From Streptomyces sp. Ag109_O5-10 (lineage in GTDB: Bacteria; Actinomycetota; Actinomycetes; Streptomycetales; Streptomycetaceae): DNA of 64,000 nucleotides. Each line of letters starts with the position of its first letter. Within the stretch, counting starts at the first letter, position 1. The notes under the pieces are model-generated. The model saw only the letters and a list, made by a program, of their open reading frames with translations, ran no database searches and was not told the DNA's origin. This document shows, piece by piece, positions 4,252 to 41,535 of this stretch. The DNA lies in the NCBI RefSeq assembly GCF_900105755.1, contig NZ_FNTQ01000001.1, positions 1,612,001-1,676,000 on the forward strand, written 5' to 3'. Position numbers and translations under genes: made by a program.

Positions 4252-6194
4252 GGAGCACGACAGGCACGAAGCGCACCCGGAAGCGCGAACCGAAGACCTA
4301 CACCCGTCTCACCCACCCGCTGGTCAGGGACTCCCGCGACGAGCCGTTCCGGCAGGCGAGCTGGGAGGAGGCGCTGGACCGCGCGGCCCGCGGCCTGGAG
4401 CGCAACCGCGAGGCGTTCGGGATGTTCTCCTGCGCCCGCGCGACCAACGAGATGAACTACGTGGCGCAGAAGTTCGCCCGGGTGGTGATGGGCACCAACA
4501 ACGTCGACTCCTGCAACCGGACCTGTCACGCCCCGAGCGTGGCCGGTCTCTCGGCGGCCTTCGGGTCCGGCGGCGGCACCTCGTCGTACGAGGAGATCGA
4601 GCACACCGACGTCATCGTGATGTGGGGTTCCAACGCCCGCTTCGCGCACCCGATCTTCTTCCAGCACGTGCTGAAGGGGATCAGGAACGGCGCCCGGATG
4701 TACGCCGTCGACCCGCGGCGCACCTCCACCGCGGAGTGGGCGGAGAGCTGGCTCGGGCTGAACGTCGGCACCGACATCCCGATGGCGCACGCGATCGGCC
4801 GGGAGATCATCCACGCGGGGCTGGTCAACGAGGCGTTCGTCGAGCGGGCCACCACCGGCTTCGAGGAGTACAAGGCCCTCGTCGAGCCGTGGACGCTGTC
4901 CCTCACAGAGAAGGTGACGGGCGTACCGGCCCGCGCGATACGGGAGTTGGCGCACGCCTACGCCCGCGCCGAGCGCGCCCAGCTGTGCTGGACCCTCGGC
5001 ATCACCGAGCACCACAACGGCACCGACAACGTCCGCGCCCTGATCAACCTCTCCCTGCTCACCGGTCAGGTGGGACGCTGGGGCGCCGGGTTGCAGCCGC
5101 TGCGCGGGCAGAACAACGTGCAGGGCGGCGGCGACATGGGCGCGATCCCCAACCGCCTGCCCGGCTTCCAGGACATCCTCGACCCGGACGCCCGGCTGAA
5201 GTTCGAGTCGGCCTGGGACACGGTCATCCCGCCGCACTACGGGCTGACCCTCACCGAGATGTTCGAGGCGATGGAGGAGGGCTCGCTCAGGGCGGTCTAC
5301 TGCATCGGTGAGAACCCGGCCCAGTCGGAGGCCGACAGCGAGCAGGCGGTGCGGCGGCTGCGGGCCCTCGACTTCCTGGTCGTCCAGGACATCTTCCTCA
5401 CGAAGACGGCGGAACTGGCGGACGTGGTGCTGCCCGCGACCGCCGGCTGGGCGGAGACCGAGGGCACCACGACCAACAGCGAGCGCCGGGTGCAGCGGGT
5501 GCGCCGTGCGGTCGCCCCGCCCGGCGAGGCCCGTGAGGACATCGACATCATCTGCGAGCTGGCGGGGCTCCTGGGCCACGACTGGAAGTACGCCGACGCG
5601 GAGGCCGTCTGGAACGAGCTCCGCTCCGTCTCCCCCGACCACTACGGCATGACGTACGACCGGCTCGTCGAGCACCAGGGCATCCAGTGGCCGTGCCCGA
5701 GCACCGAGCGGCTCGAACCGACGTACCTGCACGGCCGGTTGTGGGAGACGGACCCGGACAGGCGCGGGACACCGGCACCGTTCGGGCTGGTCCGGCACGA
5801 TCCCCCGGTCGATCTCACCGACGAGGAGTACCCGATCCGGCTCACCACCGGGCGCCGTCTCGACTCCTACAACACCGGTGTGCAGAGCGGCGGCTACGCC
5901 TCCCCGCTGCGGCGCGGCGAGTACATCGAGCTGTGCCCGGAGGACGCCGAGCGGTACGGGGTGACCGTCGGCGAGGAGGTCCAGGTGTCCTCCCGGCGGG
6001 GCGCGGTGGTGGCGCCGGTCTGGGTCGACCCGGCGCTGCGCCCCGGGCTCGCCTTCATGACCATGCACTTTCCCGACGAGGTGGACACCAACCAGCTGAC
6101 GATCGAGGCGAACTGCCCGATCGCGGGGACTGCGGAGTTCAAGGCGTCCGCGATCCGTATCGAGAAGCTCCCGGTCGCGACCATCGTGAGGTGA
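4248..6194 (+). CDS. Formate dehydrogenase catalytic subunit lacking its N-terminal Fe4S4 domain
   Basis: 648 residues; ATG 4248 overlaps the previous stop (ATGA). It contains the molybdopterin oxidoreductase core (about 25-480) and the MoCo dinucleotide-binding domain (about 535-640, from EEYPIRLTTGRRLDSYNT to NQLTIEANCPIAG). In NNVDSCNRTCHAPSVAGL, Cys93 occupies the position of the metal-ligating selenocysteine of E. coli FdhF and is followed by His94, so this is a Cys-type formate dehydrogenase. The usual N-terminal [4Fe-4S] module (CxxCxxxC...C) is missing. The protein opens directly at TYTRLTHPLVR, the point where the module would hand over, and that module is found at the C-terminus of the protein encoded at 8014-8874. 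The product should oxidise formate to CO2 and pass electrons through that partner to the NuoEF-like diaphorase. Confidence 0.9.
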   Translation: MRSTTGTKRTRKREPKTYTRLTHPLVRDSRDEPFRQASWEEALDRAARGLERNREAFGMFSCARATNEMNYVAQKFARVVMGTNNVDSCNRTCHAPSVAGLSAAFGSGGGTSSYEEIEHTDVIVMWGSNARFAHPIFFQHVLKGIRNGARMYAVDPRRTSTAEWAESWLGLNVGTDIPMAHAIGREIIHAGLVNEAFVERATTGFEEYKALVEPWTLSLTEKVTGVPARAIRELAHAYARAERAQLCWTLGITEHHNGTDNVRALINLSLLTGQVGRWGAGLQPLRGQNNVQGGGDMGAIPNRLPGFQDILDPDARLKFESAWDTVIPPHYGLTLTEMFEAMEEGSLRAVYCIGENPAQSEADSEQAVRRLRALDFLVVQDIFLTKTAELADVVLPATAGWAETEGTTTNSERRVQRVRRAVAPPGEAREDIDIICELAGLLGHDWKYADAEAVWNELRSVSPDHYGMTYDRLVEHQGIQWPCPSTERLEPTYLHGRLWETDPDRRGTPAPFGLVRHDPPVDLTDEEYPIRLTTGRRLDSYNTGVQSGGYASPLRRGEYIELCPEDAERYGVTVGEEVQVSSRRGAVVAPVWVDPALRPGLAFMTMHFPDEVDTNQLTIEANCPIAGTAEFKASAIRIEKLPVATIVR

Positions 6195-6199
6195 CGTAA

Positions 6200-8017
6200 G
6201 TGGACCTGCACTTCGGCGACAGCAAACCGACGGACGACGAACGCGCCGCCGTCGACGCCCTGCTGGGCCCTCCGGAGTCCTCCTGGGAGGGCGCCGACCG
6301 CTCCGACGCGGACCTGCGCTGGGCGCGCGGCGGCCGGGAGGCCCGGGACCGCCGCGACCTGCTGCTGCCGGGGCTGCACGCGATCAACGACCGGGTCGGC
6401 TGGATCAGCGAGGGCGCCCTCGGCTACCTCTGCCGCCGCCTGACCGTCCCCCCGGCCGAGGCGTACGGAGTCGCCACCTTCTACGCGATGTTCTCCGTCA
6501 GGCCCCGCCCGGCGACCGTCCTGCACGTCTGCACGGACCTGGCGTGCACGGCGGCCGGGGCGTCCGCACTGTGCGCCGGGGTGGAGGCGGGCCTCGGCCC
6601 CGGCGTGCACGTCGAGCGCAGCCCCTGTCTGGGCCTGTGCGAGCGGGCCCCGGCGGCCCTGGCGATCCGGGCCGGGAGCCCGGTGCGTACGGCGGTGGCG
6701 GCCCCGGCGACGGTCGAGGCGGCCGTGCTCGCGGCCACCGCGCCCGACTCGGCACAGGAGGAGCCGCCGGCCGGGGCGGCCGTACCCCAGGCGGGACAGG
6801 AGGGCCTGACCCTGCTGCAGCGGGTGGGCGTGGTCGACCCCGCCTCGCTCGACGACTACCGGGCGAACGGCGGCTACACCGCCCTGCGGCACGCCTTCGC
6901 GCTCGGCCCCGCCGGGGTCATCCGCGAGGTCACCGACTCGGGGCTGGTCGGGCGCGGCGGCGCCGCCTTCCCCACCGGCCGCAAGTGGCAGGCCACCGCT
7001 TCCCAGCCCGACCACCCGCACTACCTGGTCTGCAACGCCGACGAATCGGAGCCGGGCACCTTCAAGGACCGCGTGCTCATGGAGGGCGATCCGTACTCCC
7101 TGGTGGAGGCGATGACGATCGCGGGGTACGCGATCGGCGCCCGCCGGGGCTTCGTCTACCTCCGCGGCGAGTACCCGCGGGCGACCCGGCGTCTCCGGCA
7201 CGCGATCGACCAGGCCCGCGCCCGGGGCTTCCTCGGCGAGGACGTGCTCGGGCAGGGCTTCGCCTTCGACATCGAGATCCGGCGCGGCGCCGGGGCGTAC
7301 ATCTGCGGCGAGGAGACGGCCCTGTTCAACTCCATCGAGGGGTACCGGGGCGAGCCGCGCTCGAAGCCGCCGTTCCCGGTGGAGAAAGGGCTGTTCGGGA
7401 AGCCGACGGTCGAGAACAACGTGGAGACGCTGGTCAACGTCCTGCCGATCCTGACCATGGGCGCCCCGGCGTACGCGGCGATCGGCACCGCCAGGTCCAC
7501 CGGCCCGAAGCTCTTCTGCGTGTCCGGGAGCGTGGCCCGCCCCGGCATCTTCGAACTCCCCTTCGGCGCCACGCTCGGCGAACTCCTCCACCTGGCCGGA
7601 GTGCGCGACGGCCTGCGGGCGGTCCTGCTCGGTGGCGCCGCGGGCGGCTTCGTACGGCCGGACGAACTCGGCATCCCGCTCACCTTCGAAGGGACCCGGG
7701 AGGCCGGCACCACGCTCGGCTCCGGTGTGGTCATGGCCTTCGACGACACCGTGCCGCTGCCGCGGCTCCTGCTCCGGATCGCCCAGTTCTTCCGGGACGA
7801 GTCCTGCGGGCAGTGCGTGCCCTGCCGGGTCGGCACGGTCCGGCAGGAGGAGGCGCTGCACCGGATCGTCGAGCGCACCGGCGCCGGCGCGGCCGGGGAC
7901 GTCGCGCTGCTGCGCGAGGTCGGCCGGGCGATGCGGGACGCCTCGATCTGCGGTCTCGGGCAGACCGCGTGGAACGCCGTGGAATCCGCCATCGACCGTC
8001 TGGGGGCGTACGAATGA
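6200..8017 (+). CDS. NAD-dependent formate dehydrogenase diaphorase, NuoE-NuoF fusion
   Basis: 605 residues from GTG 6200, five bases after the previous stop. Residues 45-180 form a NuoE-like thioredoxin-fold [2Fe-2S] domain with Cys111, Cys116, Cys143 and Cys147 (CTDLAC, CLGLC). Residues 205-600 form a NuoF-like domain with the FMN loop GRGGAAFPTG (251-260), the NADH-binding stretch GAGAYICGEETAL and a [4Fe-4S] site ESCGQCVPC (Cys536, 539, 542) plus Cys584. An Ala/Pro-rich linker (about 165-205) joins them. FdsG and FdsB of soluble NAD-formate dehydrogenases are normally separate; here they are one chain. It would reduce NAD+ with electrons from the Fe-S subunit. Its stop overlaps the next start (ATGA). 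Confidence 0.92.
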   Translation: MDLHFGDSKPTDDERAAVDALLGPPESSWEGADRSDADLRWARGGREARDRRDLLLPGLHAINDRVGWISEGALGYLCRRLTVPPAEAYGVATFYAMFSVRPRPATVLHVCTDLACTAAGASALCAGVEAGLGPGVHVERSPCLGLCERAPAALAIRAGSPVRTAVAAPATVEAAVLAATAPDSAQEEPPAGAAVPQAGQEGLTLLQRVGVVDPASLDDYRANGGYTALRHAFALGPAGVIREVTDSGLVGRGGAAFPTGRKWQATASQPDHPHYLVCNADESEPGTFKDRVLMEGDPYSLVEAMTIAGYAIGARRGFVYLRGEYPRATRRLRHAIDQARARGFLGEDVLGQGFAFDIEIRRGAGAYICGEETALFNSIEGYRGEPRSKPPFPVEKGLFGKPTVENNVETLVNVLPILTMGAPAYAAIGTARSTGPKLFCVSGSVARPGIFELPFGATLGELLHLAGVRDGLRAVLLGGAAGGFVRPDELGIPLTFEGTREAGTTLGSGVVMAFDDTVPLPRLLLRIAQFFRDESCGQCVPCRVGTVRQEEALHRIVERTGAGAAGDVALLREVGRAMRDASICGLGQTAWNAVESAIDRLGAYE

Positions 8018-8874
8018 CCGTGACACCGCTGGGGATCCCGCGCCGGCTGCTGGAGTTCACCATCGACGGCGAGGAGGCGCGGGTCCCGGAGGGCTCGACG
8101 ATCCTGGACGCCTGCCGGGCGGCAGGCAAGGACGTGCCGACCCTGTGCGAGGGCGACACGCTGCGCCCGAAGAACGCCTGCCGGGTGTGCGTGGTGGAGG
8201 TGGAGGGGGCGCGGACCCTCGTGCCCGCCTGCTCCCGGAAGGCCGAGCCGGGGATGGTCGTCCGCACCGGCGGCGAACGCGTCCGGCACAGCCGCAGGAT
8301 CGTCCTGGAGCTGCTGGCCTCCTCGGTGGACCTGTCGACGACCCCCCGCGCAGCCGAGTGGATCAAGGAGTACGAGGCGAAACCGGACCGCTTCGGCCCC
8401 GACGCGGCCCGCCTGAACGAGGAACCGAGGGTCGACAACGATCTGTACGTGCGCGACTACGGCAAGTGCATCCTCTGCTACAAGTGCGTCGACGCCTGCG
8501 GCGACCAGTGGCAGAACAGCTTCGCGATCTCCGTCGCCGGGCGCGGCTTCGACGCCCGGATCGCCGTCGAGCACGACGCCCCGCTGACCGACTCGGCCTG
8601 CGTCTACTGCGGGAACTGCGTGGAGGTGTGTCCCACGGGGGCGCTGTCGTTCAAGTCGGAGTTCGACATGCGGGCGGCGGGTACCTGGGACGAGTCGAAG
8701 CAGACGGAGACGACCACGGTGTGCGCGTACTGCGGTGTGGGCTGCAACCTCACGCTCCACGTGCAGGACAATGAGATAGTCAAGGTCACCTCACCGCACG
8801 ACAACCCGGTGACCCACGGCAATCTCTGCATCAAGGGCCGTTTCGGCTACCAGCACGTACAGAACCGGGGCTGA
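8014..8874 (+). CDS. Formate dehydrogenase Fe-S subunit with displaced FdhF N-terminal domain
   Basis: 286 residues; ATG 8014 overlaps the NuoEF stop. In order: a plant-type [2Fe-2S] domain (Cys45, 56, 59, 73), a two-cluster ferredoxin domain (Cys152/155/158/162 and Cys196/199/202/206), then a molybdopterin-oxidoreductase [4Fe-4S] domain (Cys237, 240, 244, 272; VCAYCGVGC ... LCIKGRFGY) that ends abruptly at HVQNRG. In FdsA/FdhF-type enzymes this last domain continues straight into the catalytic domain; here the catalytic part is a separate upstream gene (4248-6194). The two chains must therefore associate to rebuild one electron path from the Mo centre to FMN. The last 50 residues join head to tail with the start of the upstream protein, which makes the split clear. 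Confidence 0.92.
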   Translation: MTVTPLGIPRRLLEFTIDGEEARVPEGSTILDACRAAGKDVPTLCEGDTLRPKNACRVCVVEVEGARTLVPACSRKAEPGMVVRTGGERVRHSRRIVLELLASSVDLSTTPRAAEWIKEYEAKPDRFGPDAARLNEEPRVDNDLYVRDYGKCILCYKCVDACGDQWQNSFAISVAGRGFDARIAVEHDAPLTDSACVYCGNCVEVCPTGALSFKSEFDMRAAGTWDESKQTETTTVCAYCGVGCNLTLHVQDNEIVKVTSPHDNPVTHGNLCIKGRFGYQHVQNRG

Positions 8875-23955: not shown

Positions 23956-24753
23956 TCACACCTGTTGGTAGCCACGGAGGTTGGTGAGCAGGAGATAGGT
24001 GTCCTGGAGCGAGCCCGAGGTGTCGCCGAGGGAGCGGTAGATGCCCCACTTCGGGCGGACCCGGTCGGCCAGGAAGGTGTCCACGCCGGTCTTCGAGGCG
24101 TCGATCACGGTGGCGCCGCCGGACTTGAGGATCCAGCGGACCGAACCCGCCGAGCCGTTGCCGACCTTGATCTGGAAATCGACGTCGGTCCAGGAGTCGT
24201 GCAGCGGGTCGAGGTCGGCGCGGCCGACGATGATGCCGTCGGTGGCGAGGTTCAGCTCGATGGTCTGCTTGCCGTTCACCCGGCGCAGGGACTGCACGAC
24301 GATCGGCGAGGTGCCGGTGCCGGGCTGCTTCATCTGCATGATGTGGGTGAAGGTGGTGGTCGCCTTCAGCGAGCTCGGGATGTACATCGAGTAGGTGACC
24401 CGCCAGGTCTGGCCCTGGGTCCACTTGAGATAGCTGCCGGCACCCGTGCGCAGTCCGGTGACCTCCTGCCGCTGGCGGTCGGTCGAGGTGTCGCGGTCGA
24501 CCGTGTGCATGTTGAAGCGCCAGTTGTTCCCCGTGGCGTAGATGTGCGGGTGCCCGGCGGGGTGGGAGTCGGCGCGGTCGTCCTCGACGGTCTCGAAGGC
24601 GCCGAGGCCGTCACCGCTCGCCGACGGCTGCCACTTGAGCTGCCAGGACGCGGCGTGTGCGGTGGTCGCGGGCAGGCCCACGGCGGCCGTGGCGGCTCCG
24701 GCCAGCGCGGCTCCGAGGACCGCCCTTCTGGATGTAGCGCTCATGACATTCAT
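23956..24753 (-). CDS. Tat-exported polysaccharide-lyase-like protein (heparin-lyase fold)
   Basis: 265 residues. Twin-arginine signal (TSRRAVLGAALAGAATAAVGL), cleavage near AHAASW. The mature part (about 35-265) is a beta-rich jelly-roll: an N-terminal SGDGLGAFETVEDDRADSHPAG, central RVTYSMYIPSSLKATTTFTHIMQMK and C-terminal RVRPKWGIYRSLGDTSG ending in a short strand. This pattern fits the polysaccharide lyase family of heparin-lyase type (PF14099-like); I assign it by fold pattern, not by catalytic residues. The start overlaps the GH105 stop (ATGA). GH105 acts on the unsaturated uronic acids that lyases produce, so adjacency supports lyase activity on an acidic polysaccharide. Confidence 0.65.
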   Translation of the reverse strand: MNVMSATSRRAVLGAALAGAATAAVGLPATTAHAASWQLKWQPSASGDGLGAFETVEDDRADSHPAGHPHIYATGNNWRFNMHTVDRDTSTDRQRQEVTGLRTGAGSYLKWTQGQTWRVTYSMYIPSSLKATTTFTHIMQMKQPGTGTSPIVVQSLRRVNGKQTIELNLATDGIIVGRADLDPLHDSWTDVDFQIKVGNGSAGSVRWILKSGGATVIDASKTGVDTFLADRVRPKWGIYRSLGDTSGSLQDTYLLLTNLRGYQQV

Positions 24754-37411: not shown

Positions 37412-38272
37412 GTGAGTGAACGGCGTGCTGCGCCCACAGTGGGGCAGGTCGTGCTCGGCAAGCGGCTGCAGGAACTGCGCGAGGCGGCCGGCCTGGGCCG
37501 CGACGAGGCGGCGCGGGTCCTGCGGGTGGCCCAGGCGACCGTGCGGCGGATGGAGATGGCCGAGGTCGCGCTGAAGATCCCGTACATCCAGGTGCTCCTG
37601 GACACGTACGGGGTGGCCGAGGAGGAGCAGGCCGCGTTCATACGGCTGGCCGAGGAGGCCAACCAGCCGGGCTGGTGGCAGCGGTTCCACGACGTGCTGC
37701 CGGACTGGTTCAGCCTGTACGTGAGCCTGGAGGGCGCCGCCCGGGTCGTCCGCTCCTACGAGCCGCACTTCCTCCCCGGCCTGTTGCAGACCGAGGCGTA
37801 CGCGCGGGCCGTGATGGAGTCCGGGACGATCGGCCACAGCGATCCCACGGCCGTGGAACGGCACGTGGCGCTGCGCATGACCCGGCAGCGGCTGCTGGAG
37901 CAGGACGATCCGCCCCACCTGTGGGTGATCATGGACGAGACGGTGCTGCGGCGCCCGGCCGGCGACGCCGAGGTGATGCGCGACCAGGTCGACAAGCTCC
38001 TCGCCTACGTCGAGCGGGACCGGATAACCCTGCAGCTCGCCGAGTTCGCGAGCGGTCCGCACCCCGGCACGTACGCGCCGTTCACGCTGTTCCGGTTCGC
38101 CGAGCCCGAGCTGCCCGACATGGTCTTCACCGAGTACCTGACCGGCGCCCTGTACCTGGACTCCCGCGACGAGGTCGGGGCGCACCTGGAGGTCCTGGAC
38201 CACATGACGGCCCGCGCGGCCTCGGCACAGCGGACCGAGGAGCTGCTGCGGGAGTACCGCGACAAGCTCTGA
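37412..38272 (+). CDS. Scr1-type XRE regulator (HTH + DUF5753)
   Basis: 286 residues from GTG 37412 (GGGGAGG at -7). HTH: LGKRLQELREAAGLGRDEAARVLRVAQATVRRMEMAEV. The DUF5753 domain contains YEPHFLPGLLQTEAYARAVM, WVIMDETVLRRPAGDAEVMRDQVDKLL and TGALYLDSRDEVGAHLEVLDHM. Such regulators normally precede a DUF397 gene; here the expected partner is absent and a transposon starts right at the stop codon, whose TGA (38270-38272) is also the target duplication. The gene itself is intact. Confidence 0.92.
   Translation: MSERRAAPTVGQVVLGKRLQELREAAGLGRDEAARVLRVAQATVRRMEMAEVALKIPYIQVLLDTYGVAEEEQAAFIRLAEEANQPGWWQRFHDVLPDWFSLYVSLEGAARVVRSYEPHFLPGLLQTEAYARAVMESGTIGHSDPTAVERHVALRMTRQRLLEQDDPPHLWVIMDETVLRRPAGDAEVMRDQVDKLLAYVERDRITLQLAEFASGPHPGTYAPFTLFRFAEPELPDMVFTEYLTGALYLDSRDEVGAHLEVLDHMTARAASAQRTEELLREYRDKL
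38248..38263. repeat. 16-bp direct repeat flanking the transposon (left copy)
   Basis: GCGGGAGTACCGCGAC at 38248-38263, in the last codons of the DUF5753 gene, recurs exactly at 41108-41123 just outside the right terminus. Without the element the two copies would be 9 bp apart, a short tandem duplication. Confidence 0.85.
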
Positions 38273-38445
38273 GCTTGCCGTTTAACGTCCAGCTGCGAAC
38301 AGGTGAGCCTGACGATTACGCGTTCGCGCGGTCTGTCCGGGGCAGCAGCGCGTTCCCGAACAGAGTCAGGGAAGTGCCCCGCCATCGATGTCGGTCCCTT
38401 CGGGCATGATCTGCTCCGATCGGACTCGACGGCGGAAGACAGGGC

Positions 38446-39492
38446 ATGAGCGACTGGCGGACTGACCCGACGTACGCGATGTGCCGGGCCTTGGTGAACG
38501 GGGCAGAGCTGTCCTCGTTCGCGGACGGGCCGTTCGACGTGCGCGCGGTGGCGGCTGCGGTCCGCCCCGAAGCCAAGGACAGATTCCTACTGGACGAAGT
38601 CCCCTGGGAGAACTTCCCGCAGGGGGACCAGGTCCGGGAGGCCGTCCGCCTGCTCCGCGCCGGTGGGCCGCCCGTCCCCGCCGGCGTGGGTGTGGTGAGC
38701 GGCATGTGCGCCAACGACATGCGGGCGGCTGCCGCACTCGCCGTTGCGTTCCTGATCCGGATCGCCGCCGACCTACACCACCCTCACCGCACCGTCGCGC
38801 TCGCCGAGGTGCCCGCCCCGGCCCGCGCCCGTTACTTCGGAGTCGCCTCCCGCGCCGAATTGCTGCTCCACCGCACTGGACCCCGGCAGGACGACTACGA
38901 CGACTACGGCTCCGAGGTGACCGGGTACCCGGCGGGCTGGTCGGTCGCCGCAGCCCGGGCCGCCATTACCGCCGACGCCGCCCTCCTCCTGCCTTTGCTG
39001 CACGACCCTGCCCCGACGACCCGGATCCGTGCCGCCTACGCCCTGGCCACCGTCACCGACCTCCACGGCACGGTCCGCACCGCCCTCCGCGCCCGGTTCG
39101 CCGCCGAGCCGGCCCCGGACGTCTGTGCCGCACTGCTCCTCGCCACCGCCGAAATCACCCGTGCCCGCCCCCACTCGCCGACCACCGTCCTGCTGCGCGA
39201 GTACTGGCAGGACCACACCCGAGCCCCCGAAGTCCGGCTGGCCGCCGCGATCGGATGGCTCTGCCTCACCGACGAAGCCGCTCCCGAAGACCTGCGCGTA
39301 GCCCTCGACGGTCTCGCCACCGACGAGCGCGCCCGCACCATGGACGCCCTGCCCTGGATGGCCGCCGTTGGCGGATCCGGCGAGACGGGGCTGCAGCGCT
39401 GCCTGCGTAGGATGCTCCACCCGGAACAGCCTGATCCGATGGAGTACGACGACCCGTGGGCTCGCGACGCTGACGGCGCGAGCAGACCCTGA
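38446..39492 (+). CDS. HEAT-repeat-like passenger protein of the transposon
   Basis: 348 residues from ATG 38446 (AGACAGGGC upstream). It is rich in paired helices: LLPLLHDPAPTTRIRAAYALATVTDLHG, ALRARFAAEPAPDVCAALLLATAEITRA, LLREYWQDHTRAPEVRLAAAIGWLCLTDEAAPEDLRVALDGL, the pattern of HEAT repeats. The N-terminal region (MSDWRTDPTYAMCRALVNGAELSSFADG) has no domain I recognise. No catalytic motif or export signal. It lies between the terminal repeats and ahead of the transposase, so it travels with the element. HEAT-like solenoids usually mediate protein binding; a regulatory or protective role is only a guess. Confidence 0.75.
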   Translation: MSDWRTDPTYAMCRALVNGAELSSFADGPFDVRAVAAAVRPEAKDRFLLDEVPWENFPQGDQVREAVRLLRAGGPPVPAGVGVVSGMCANDMRAAAALAVAFLIRIAADLHHPHRTVALAEVPAPARARYFGVASRAELLLHRTGPRQDDYDDYGSEVTGYPAGWSVAAARAAITADAALLLPLLHDPAPTTRIRAAYALATVTDLHGTVRTALRARFAAEPAPDVCAALLLATAEITRARPHSPTTVLLREYWQDHTRAPEVRLAAAIGWLCLTDEAAPEDLRVALDGLATDERARTMDALPWMAAVGGSGETGLQRCLRRMLHPEQPDPMEYDDPWARDADGASRP

Positions 39493-39548
39493 CCTACGTT
39501 CGGCGGACCCGGTGATCACTCGTTCGGGTGTCTCCGGGACGTGGGCAT

Positions 39549-39604
39549 GGCCTTCGCGTGATCCTGAACTCGGTCTGAGAGGTACAGGACTTGATGCGAA
39601 GGCC
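39549..39604. repeat. 9-bp inverted repeat in transposase leader
   Basis: GGCCTTCGC (39549-39557) and GCGAAGGCC (39596-39604) flank 38 bp directly upstream of the transposase ATG at 39611. It may form a leader stem that hides the ribosome site, or be a transposase binding site inside the element. Confidence 0.5.
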
Positions 39605-39610
39605 GCAGTG

Positions 39611-41095
39611 ATGAGTGTGGTGCAGCAGGGTGTGCGGGGCGAGCCGTTGGCGGAACTGTCACGCTTCCGGGGGGTCTTCTACGACTGCCTGCTCGGGCGA
39701 CGCGACGCGCTGTTCGAGCTGACGGACGCGGTGCTGTGCAGCGACGGGCCGGTGAAGACCCTGGTCGGCCTGGCGCTCGCACCTGAGCACCGGCGCGGGC
39801 ACGGTGCCCTGTACGGCGCGCTGAACCGGGGCCGGGTGGACGTCGATCGGCTGCGGTCGGAGCTCGCCGGCCTGCCGCTGCCGCGGGCCGCCGACGGCCG
39901 CCTGGTGTTGGCGGTGGACGTCTCGCCGTGGCTGCGGCCGGACGCCGGGACCTGCCCGGACCGCTCGTTCTGCCACACCTTCGGCCGCGGCGACGCCAAG
40001 CACCAGATGATCCCGGGCTGGCCGTACTCGTTCGTGGTCGCGCTGGAGACCGGGCGAACGTCGTGGACGGCGGTGCTGGACGCGGTGCGGCTGGAACCCG
40101 GCGCCGACGTCGCGGCTACCACCGCTGCCCAACTCCGCGACGTAGTGACCCGGTTGATCGGCGCGGGGCAGTGGACGTCGGGCGATCCGGAGGTGCTCGT
40201 GGTGATGGACGCTGGCTACGACGCCCCGCGGATCGCACACCTGCTCAGCGACCTGCCGGTGCAGGTTCTCGGCCGGCTCCGTTCGGACCGGGTGATGCGC
40301 CGCCCGGCGCCCAGCCGCGCGGAGTTCGCCGCCGCGAATCCGGCCGGGGGCCGGCCGCCCAAGCACGTCGGCGAGTTCGTGTTCGGCGACCCCGCCACTT
40401 GGGGCACCGAACAGGCGGTCACCACCACCGCGACCCGCCGCTACGGCACCGCTACGGCCCGGGCCTGGGACCGGCTTCACCCCCGGCTGACCCGCCGGGC
40501 GGCATGGCTGGAACACGACGGCGAGCTGCCGCTCCTCGAAGGCACGGTGATCCGGCTCGCCGTCGAGAAGCTGCCCAGCGGCGGGGCGAACCGGCCGGTC
40601 TGGCTGTGGTGGTCGCGTACCGGTGCCAGCCCGGCCGACGTCGACCGCTGCTGGCAGGCGTTCCTCCGCCGCTTCGACGTGGAGCACACCTTCCGTCTGC
40701 TCAAGCAGACCCTCGGCTGGACCCGGCCCCGCCTGCGCGACTCGGCGGCGGCCGACCGCTGGACCTGGCTGGTGATCGCCGCCCACACCCAGCTCCGCCT
40801 TGCCCGCCCGCTCGTCGCCGATCTCCGCCATCCCTGGGAGAAGCCGGCGGAACCGAGCAAGCTCACCCCCGCCCGCGTCCGGCGCGGGTTCCGGAACCTG
40901 CACACGAAGACACCCTCACCAGCGCAAGCGCCGAAACCCACCCACCCCGGTCCTGGCCGGCCGCCCGGCCGCAGGAATCAGCGGCCCGCCGCCCGCTACG
41001 AAGTGGGCAGAGTCCTGACCACCGGCGAGGCGTACGACCGGCCCGCCCACCACAAGAAGGGCACCAAGCCCCGACGAACCACTACAAATGGTTAA
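39611..41095 (+). CDS. DDE transposase (NF041680-type, IS4/IS701-like)
   Basis: 494 residues from ATG 39611. The N-terminal half has the family opening LSRFRGVFYDCLLGRRDALFELTDAVLC and VKTLVGLALAPEHRRGHGALYGALNRG. The DDE acids are probably Asp in LVLAVDVSPWLRPD, Asp in VLVVMDAGYDAPRI and Glu in FDVEHTFRLLKQTLGW (Y/F-x-E-H-x-F-R type). The C-terminal tail is basic (KPTHPGPGRPPGRRNQRP). It is full length. The stop codon lies inside the right terminal inverted repeat. Confidence 0.92.
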   Translation: MSVVQQGVRGEPLAELSRFRGVFYDCLLGRRDALFELTDAVLCSDGPVKTLVGLALAPEHRRGHGALYGALNRGRVDVDRLRSELAGLPLPRAADGRLVLAVDVSPWLRPDAGTCPDRSFCHTFGRGDAKHQMIPGWPYSFVVALETGRTSWTAVLDAVRLEPGADVAATTAAQLRDVVTRLIGAGQWTSGDPEVLVVMDAGYDAPRIAHLLSDLPVQVLGRLRSDRVMRRPAPSRAEFAAANPAGGRPPKHVGEFVFGDPATWGTEQAVTTTATRRYGTATARAWDRLHPRLTRRAAWLEHDGELPLLEGTVIRLAVEKLPSGGANRPVWLWWSRTGASPADVDRCWQAFLRRFDVEHTFRLLKQTLGWTRPRLRDSAAADRWTWLVIAAHTQLRLARPLVADLRHPWEKPAEPSKLTPARVRRGFRNLHTKTPSPAQAPKPTHPGPGRPPGRRNQRPAARYEVGRVLTTGEAYDRPAHHKKGTKPRRTTTNG

Positions 41096-41107
41096 ACGGC
41101 AAGCTGA

Positions 41108-41123
41108 GCGGGAGTACCGCGAC
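41108..41123. repeat. 16-bp direct repeat flanking the transposon (right copy)
   Basis: GCGGGAGTACCGCGAC, identical to 38248-38263, immediately beyond the duplicated TGA on the right side of the element. Confidence 0.85.
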
Positions 41124-41153: not shown

Positions 41154-41457
41154 GTGAGCGCAGCCGAGCCCGCCCCGACCTCGATCGGCACGAGCCGGCC
41201 GCGTCCGGCGCGGGTGCACGACCGGTCACCCCGGACCTCAGCCCGGAGGCGGTCGAGCGGGCGGCCGTGAACTTCCGGCGCAGCGGCACGCCCTTCCACC
41301 CGCGCTCGCTGCCCGCGTTCCACCGCTTCTTCGACGGCCTGGAGCTGCTCGGCCCGGGGGTGATCCCGGTCTCCGGCCGGCGTCCGGAGCCGGCGGACGT
41401 GGCCGTCCAGGCGGAGGGCGCCGTGCCGGTGTACGGCCGGTCGCCCGCAAGGTCTGA
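41154..41457 (+). pseudogene. DUF574 SAM-methyltransferase, internally deleted
   Basis: After GAGGAGCACAG, GTG 41154 starts VSAAEPAPTSIGTSRPRPARVHD, the N-terminus typical of DUF574 (PF04672) proteins (DTSRPHPARVYD). Directly after, in another frame, comes the C-terminal region SPEAVERAAVNFRRSGTPFHPRSLPAFHRFFDGLELLGPGVIPV ... GAVPVYG. The normal middle (about 150 residues, including the SAM site) is missing. One more base is missing near the end: restoring it gives VARKV and a TGA at 41455-41457, the usual terminus. As it stands the frame runs to 41503. In intact loci this gene often neighbours a DUF5753 regulator, as here before the transposon arrived. Confidence 0.75.
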
Positions 41458-41535
41458 CCCGTCCGGGCGCCCTGAACAGGTGCGTTCCCGGGCCCGCCCC
41501 TAGCGTCGAAGCGACGGGTGAGCGAGGGAGCGGAC

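Follow-up and report, generated by a model that had tools for sequence, protein, structure and literature searches.

Insertion sequences (ISs) and cassettes that bear passenger genes are already known, and passages on them are found in two papers (PMC3129680, PMC2266710). Those on transporter ISs and mobile insertion cassettes concern genes unrelated to transposition that lie within an IS (PMC3129680). In the sections of a 2008 survey that treat such elements, extra DNA is presented as still unusual among ISs and as unseen outside the IS231 subgroup, with systematic searches lacking (PMC2266710). An element of this kind is present in a 64,000-nucleotide stretch of the genome of Streptomyces sp. 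Ag109_O5-10 (contig NZ_FNTQ01000001.1, positions 1,612,001 to 1,676,000), which is referred to below as the window. The element is 2832 bp long (38273-41104 of the window) and consists of two plus-strand genes, one for a HEAT-like protein (P0001) and one for a transposase of the NF041680 group (P0002), between perfect 14-bp inverted repeats. Judging from sequence comparison, it is very probably a passenger-carrying IS ('transporter IS') of this group, whose cargo came to lie inside through duplication of the left end.

The nearest known system in behaviour is the IS231 subgroup of the IS4 family. Like the elements described here, IS231 elements, in the sections of the survey that deal with them, have a wide size range (1450-5400 bp), carry varied passenger genes, hold extra DNA between the left repeat and the transposase gene, possess a left end that is conserved beyond the repeat and encode DDE transposases, which are distantly related to those of NF041680 (PMC2266710). 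The same sections give IS231 10-12-bp target duplications, 5'-CAT ends, a full YREK motif and hosts of the Bacillus cereus group (PMC2266710), whereas NF041680 elements duplicate 3 bp of the form TNA (N, any base), have GCTTG ends and F for Y in the motif, occur in actinomycetes and hold passengers on either side of the transposase gene. Membership in IS4/IS231 was rejected on the F for Y and on the duplication of 3 bp instead of 10-12 bp. The IS701 family, as far as the corresponding sections go, shares a weak transposase similarity, a YREK motif without the tyrosine and a minimal size near 1.5 kb; it differs in its 4-bp duplication, against 3 bp here, in its end sequence and in the passengers that are found here (PMC2266710). 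IS701 is also mentioned together with passenger genes in passages of PMC2266710, PMC7371123 and PMC11092175, those of the last two being concerned with Tn3 transposons or with transposons in general. No paper that names NF041680, and none that combines a HEAT repeat, an insertion sequence and a passenger, was found in the literature searched, a scope that excluded most subscription papers and ISfinder.

That an element with perfect ends, a TGA duplication, a HEAT-like gene and an intact transposase gene exists at this locus is confirmed. The repeat search bore out the ends that the first-pass annotation, made from the letters of the window alone, had described around the two genes. The left repeat is GCTTGCCGTTTAAC; allowing up to two mismatches, the window holds a single further match to it (position 24267, two mismatches), with a chance expectation of 0.10 in 64 kb. 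The HEAT gene lies upstream of the transposase gene, in the same direction and 118 bp from it, and the TAA stop codon of the latter (41093-41095) falls inside the right terminal repeat (41091-41104), as had also been noted at first reading.

P0002 has an open frame and matches NF041680, an NCBIfam equivalog model that names the protein only, with 573.5 bits (cut-off 440), which places it in this group; its match to DDE_5 is 206 bits. The putative catalytic residues, assigned by motif and by eye, are D103, D200 and E358, and the YREK-type motif was assigned to F351-R354-E358-K365 (F351-x2-R-x3-E-x6-K), with F instead of Y. An incomplete YREK motif in which Y is usually absent is a trait of IS701 that P0002 shares. 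Membership in IS701 was rejected, as the scores against two NCBI models of that family are far under the cut-offs (48.6 bits against 170, E 5.5e-13; 35.6 bits against 150, E 6.2e-9), the duplication is 3 bp and not 4 bp, and the ends are off the IS701 consensus, ---YACT-Y--YR, which GCTTGCCGTTTAAC does not match. The NF041680 transposase is thus, on profile and motif evidence, a distant relative of IS701/IS4. A composite transposon was likewise rejected, since there is a single transposase and the second left end exists only as a remnant. In a tree of 41 transposases the nearest to P0002 is that of a Kitasatospora mediocidica element, L093 (87% identical, joint support 98/99); this element lacks a HEAT gene and holds a Fic-like one downstream of the transposase. 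The transposase of another locus, L123, is 90% identical in pieces, and that locus also lacks a HEAT gene.

To delimit the wider group, loci were selected for their similarity to the proteins or ends of the window; they contained 157 chained transposase matches, some of which are one copy obtained from two collections. A pair of ends was accepted where it had the CTTG end core, one end at the usual distance from the transposase gene and an identical 3-bp target site duplication (TSD). This rule gave 58 pairs, and 48 after removal of redundancy; these correspond to 46 places, two of which are counted twice with alternative ends (L239, and L088 with L103 of one genome). Decoys yielded few or no pairs: zero to two in each of six runs with shifted TSDs and none in seven with scrambled or reversed ends. 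The duplications are TGA (21), TCA (11), TTA (8), TAA (7) and CTA (1), so that 47 of 48 are of the form TNA, with a chance of about 1e-77 at a background TNA frequency of 2.1%. The pairs were chosen on an equal 3-bp flank, and the conserved bases outside are unlike on the two sides: among 41 classed insertions, the preceding base is C in 32 and the following base is G in 27. Elements that fail the rule on core, TSD or distance are missed, and therefore the passenger fraction holds for the delimited set only.

Within this set, carrying a passenger is usual. Room for cargo is present in 42 of the 48 pairs (1847-5754 bp), so the first-pass view that a passenger is unusual in so simple an element did not survive. 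The remaining six pairs are free of passengers (1581-1599 bp) and have clean ends and TSDs; copies bordered next to the transposase alone, which had been proposed as evidence against the larger unit, do exist, but they belong to lineages other than that of the HEAT copies and do not refute the latter. In distinction from transporter ISs as described, most delimited copies of a single actinomycete group carry extra DNA, and on both sides of the transposase gene: downstream (type A) in 23 of the 42 and upstream (type B) in 19. This departs from the IS231-only picture of the 2008 survey, and such passenger-bearing ISs make the boundary between ISs and transposons less sharp.

At least one open reading frame that does not overlap the transposase gene was kept by a codon model in 25 of the 42 cargo-sized pairs. 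Twenty passenger proteins were scanned, including some from four elements outside the 48 (L048, L093, L111 and L123), and 14 of them matched a Pfam family with an E-value of at most 0.01. The matches comprise SUKH, Fic, GNAT (four), NmrA, APH, DUF1877, glyoxalase and glutaredoxin; further ones are to a uridine-kinase-like protein, to DUF6882 and, weakly and below the cut-off, to SUKH. Some cargo recurs in unlike elements. The SUKH proteins of L112 (type A, 5864-8137) and L134 (type B, 5121-7456) are 62% identical, and cargo without a Pfam match recurs in L098 and L223 (63% identical) and in L106 and L136 (51%). The passenger side (A, B or none) changes at least 10 times over 39 labelled tree rows, a count made without a shuffled control. 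A match to P0001 occurs inside one delimited pair of the 48, that of the window. L135 (5122-7456) was listed with L112 and L134 as an element with SUKH-type cargo. L051 (3892-5978) has the Fic-like cargo that L093 carries (499 of 512 residues equal), bounded by both ends and a TGA duplication; an intact NF041680 transposase is missing there, and a piece of another transposase-like gene lies inside.

The left end together with the HEAT gene is found in five genomes, namely that of the window, G213, G111, G581 and G588, so copies of the kind that the first-pass annotation proposed to look for exist elsewhere. When 392 genomes were queried with the left end joined to the start of the HEAT gene, 27 gave a match, which in the window, G581 and G588 runs from the first base. 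In G213 the HEAT gene is 90% identical and the adjacent transposase gene is broken. In G111 the HEAT gene is about 73% identical and lies in two frames, while the transposase gene is cut to its first ~94 codons; this copy (L061, 5875-7521) is a 1647-bp non-autonomous HEAT derivative that retains the two ends and is flanked, at a different site, by a TGA duplication of its own. In G581 the HEAT frame looks intact and is accompanied by two fragments of the transposase gene; in G588 the HEAT gene is split into two pieces, and 9.2 kb of sequence contained no match to the transposase. Both loci show a single end repeat where it would be expected, and neither yielded a matching pair. All five copies align through the left end, that of G111 with a deletion.

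A gene unrelated to transposition inside IS ends, the mark of a transporter IS, is present, with a TSD, both in the window and in G111. The G111 derivative and the L051 Fic cassette, each with both ends and a TSD and no intact NF041680 transposase, resemble mobile insertion cassettes as the corresponding passages describe them (PMC3129680). The two TSD-flanked HEAT copies at different sites point to movement of the HEAT gene with the IS. A single capture of the gene by the lineage of the five copies is possible: in the HEAT tree they stand on one side of a weakly supported branch (43/89), which is present in 49% of 200 bootstrap trees.

Evidence for a duplicated left end comes from the sequence on both sides of the HEAT gene. 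Between the HEAT and transposase genes, positions 39503-39610 align to positions 31-137 of the L123 left end with a score of 134, which none of 300 random windows reached, and no inner left repeat stands directly before the transposase gene. The outer left end of the window is in register with the leaders of other elements (score 30; 99% of the null at 14; two of 2000 random sequences reach it), and an outer end with the leader in register is found in four of the five HEAT copies (window, G213, G581 and G588). This anchored test was made after two unanchored ones; its random pool contains element-bearing loci, which makes it strict. The two-left-end layout recurs with other cargo in L087 and L088. 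Altogether, four of 19 upstream-passenger rows have a duplicated left end (the window, L087, L088 and L239, the last of which matched itself). L239 (2888-7453) consists of two near-identical full NF041680 elements in direct order around one gene, presumably for an LLM-type oxidoreductase-like protein, with TGA at the outer borders, and this arrangement, of the composite-transposon type, is possibly a capture intermediate. The HEAT loci that yielded no IS end (L062, L067, G491 and G471) share at most ~66 bp upstream of the start codon with the window, the matches of G491 and G471 beginning at positions 108 and 114 of the query; the border of the cargo was therefore placed, approximately, at 38380-38403.

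These observations suggest the following scheme. A second left end would have come to lie upstream of the HEAT gene, which thereby became cargo, for example when two direct IS copies flanked the gene and the upstream transposase was then lost. The inner left repeat would afterwards have decayed, leaving only the outer end usable. The transposase would act at the two outer repeats and insert the entire 2.8-kb unit at a TNA site, duplicating 3 bp; where that site is a stop codon, the upstream gene would be kept whole. The HEAT protein would be cargo that acts in the host and not a transposition factor. Such an anatomy with two left ends allows direct tests of how cargo is acquired by an IS.

The insertion in the window occupies the TGA stop codon of a gene for a Sco1979-family regulator, which adjoins the left repeat. 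Fifteen relatives of this site were examined; the end of the regulator gene could be read in frame in six (L174, L175, L176, L179, L180 and L181), several of the others lying on the other strand with the wrong gene end displayed. All six end with TGA at the homologous place, with C as the preceding base in six and G as the following base in four. As the regulator of these insert-free relatives stops at the same codon, the insertion occupies the native stop, and the upstream gene stayed whole because the stop codon was duplicated, just as the first reading had proposed.

Several points weigh against the proposed history. The nearest transposases, those of L093 and L123, have end pairs but unequal flanking triplets (TCA and TGA in L093), so L093 is not shown to have transposed as a unit. 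The unanchored leader test missed the outer end of the window (61 of 300 random sequences), and the outer end of G111 fails the anchored test (1740 of 2000). Aligned directly with each other, the two left ends of the window give a poor score, which 12 of 200 shuffles reach, and the case for a duplicated left end rests on comparison with other elements. A duplicated left end is lacking in 15 of the 18 upstream-passenger rows other than the window, and a duplicated right end was seen in none of the 23 downstream-passenger rows; this capture route is thus not general. Mobility in the present host is presumptive at most, its genome (9.46 Mb, two contigs) having one intact transposase copy and a single HEAT copy, with one broken relative and one weak match of 60 residues as the other NF041680-like matches. 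The broken transposase gene lies at L059 5444-6063 (G000:C1:267443-268065) and is 65-75% identical.

How the passenger came to be enclosed might be explained otherwise, by one-ended or alternative-end transposition from a chance repeat upstream of the HEAT gene, with no second IS copy involved. In 15 of the 19 upstream-passenger rows the far end indeed has no leader beyond the 14-bp repeat, as this would predict; a chance repeat would not, however, be expected to carry a leader in register, as the outer end does in four of five HEAT copies, and for the window we regard such an origin as unlikely. A duplicated left end remains the preferred explanation there, and the chance that the repeats merely happen to surround unrelated genes, the real IS being the transposase gene alone, is negligible. 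Apart from the shortness of the repeats nothing speaks for such a coincidence, and it conflicts with the perfect repeats and TSD, with decoys of zero to two pairs against 48, with the occurrence of left end and HEAT gene in five genomes and with the missing inner left repeat.

Two further suggestions concern function and target choice. The position of the HEAT gene, just upstream of the transposase gene and codirectional, together with its mild constraint, would suit an accessory protein that aids or regulates transposition, a role that had been raised at first reading. Such a role is very unlikely, because L093, with its 87% identical transposase, and other delimited elements lack the HEAT gene. 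The P0001 match is confined to the window's pair, the passenger-free elements of 1.58 kb have clean ends and TSDs, and relatives of the HEAT gene mostly occur without such a transposase, which is adjacent in two of 23 loci (G213 and G111); a third locus, L071, has a separate passenger-free element ~3 kb away. Active targeting of stop codons as safe sites, beyond the TNA preference, is also improbable, if somewhat less so. Of 41 insertions, 4 hit the stop of a gene as called, against 1.51 expected from same-context TNA sites in the same flanks (P=0.064); the excess is not significant, genes were called with a simple codon model, and the 41 rows (seven of the 48, including that of the window, were dropped for short or masked flanks) count the L239 place twice. 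Intergenic insertions are in excess (32 of 41 against 20.2 expected), which is explained by selection against gene disruption. Any TNA triplet reads as a stop codon in one of the two strands, and the TNA rule accounts for apparent stop-codon targeting without special machinery. The statement that the element reuses a stop codon thus holds in that a native TGA was hit; as special targeting it does not, since the hit follows from the preference seen in 47 of 48 pairs.

It is tempting to ask whether NF041680 elements form a general system of single-gene capture and dispersal in Streptomyces and relatives. We consider this possible, though rather less than an even bet. If so, these short, TNA-targeting elements would enclose host genes singly (for SUKH proteins of immunity type, acetyltransferases, a phosphotransferase, Fic, HEAT and others) on either side of the transposase gene, partly via left-end duplication and silencing of the inner end, and cargo would be swapped between closely related transposases, as integrons swap cassettes. 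In any case, NF041680 elements may be a concrete vehicle for the spread of single genes among the chromosomes of Streptomyces and other actinomycetes.

The HEAT label given to the passenger protein at first reading is weak on the single sequence. P0001 alone scores 16.3 bits against Pfam HEAT, below the cut-off of 23.5, while a profile of 24 relatives matches HEAT-type structures (designed and adaptor proteins) with E 1.5e-6 over the whole chain, no stretch being significant alone. A single-sequence structure model had a predicted local distance difference test (pLDDT) score of 42.7 and was not used. Non-synonymous and synonymous divergence (dN and dS) between the HEAT genes of the window and G213 is 0.054 and 0.174, and the dN/dS values for the window and L062 are 0.19/0.48, which suggests mild constraint. 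P0001 has matches of some kind in 67 of 297 genomes of the host's family, many of them weak and within long proteins. It had no PADLOC match as a defence protein, and two scans of viral contigs found none of its kind. Among ten proteins neighbouring HEAT genes are SUKH, DUF2716, DUF2199, NACHT, HerA and others, a list too mixed for a function call. SUKH, which occurs both as cargo and among these neighbours, we take to be immunity-like. On this basis our tentative guess, less likely than not to be right, is that P0001 is an orphan immunity or interaction protein.

Features of the element and its left flank (positions in the window)
Feature	Position	Strand	Basis or remark
Left terminal inverted repeat, GCTTGCCGTTTAAC	38273-38286	+	Repeat search of the stretch
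Right terminal inverted repeat, holds transposase stop codon	41091-41104	-	Repeat search of the stretch
Target duplication TGA, left copy	38270-38272	.	Sequence, relatives
Target duplication TGA, right copy	41105-41107	.	Sequence
Outer left-end subterminal sequence, 45 bp tested	38287-38331	+	Homologous to transposase leader of relatives
Upstream region common to the HEAT gene and some HEAT loci without a found IS end	38380-38445	+	L062, L067, G491, G471
Passenger gene P0001, HEAT-like repeat protein, 348 amino acids	38446-39492	+	Open reading frame, profile searches
Inner left-end leader, terminal inverted repeat lost	39503-39610	+	Aligns to L123 leader positions 31-137
Transposase P0002, NF041680-family DDE, 494 amino acids	39611-41095	+	Open frame, profile match
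Sco1979-family transcriptional regulator (helix-turn-helix and DUF5753), start approximate	37412-38272	+	NF058600, 432.6 bits (cut-off 350)

The flanks of the element show some further features. A 16-bp direct repeat, GCGGGAGTACCGCGAC, lies outside the target duplication on both sides (38248-38263 and 41108-41123), and in the six in-frame relatives it was not observed downstream of the regulator's stop. To the right of the element, 41154-41503 is a gene that seems to be an internally deleted remnant, presumably of a methyltransferase-like gene. Judged by eye, its start looks like the gene found next to the regulator in L174, L179, L182 and L187, after which the reading switches to a different end. 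In G221 (L175), a gene start resembling that at ~41537 of the window, which here lies beyond the element and a gene remnant, comes directly after the regulator, again by eye.

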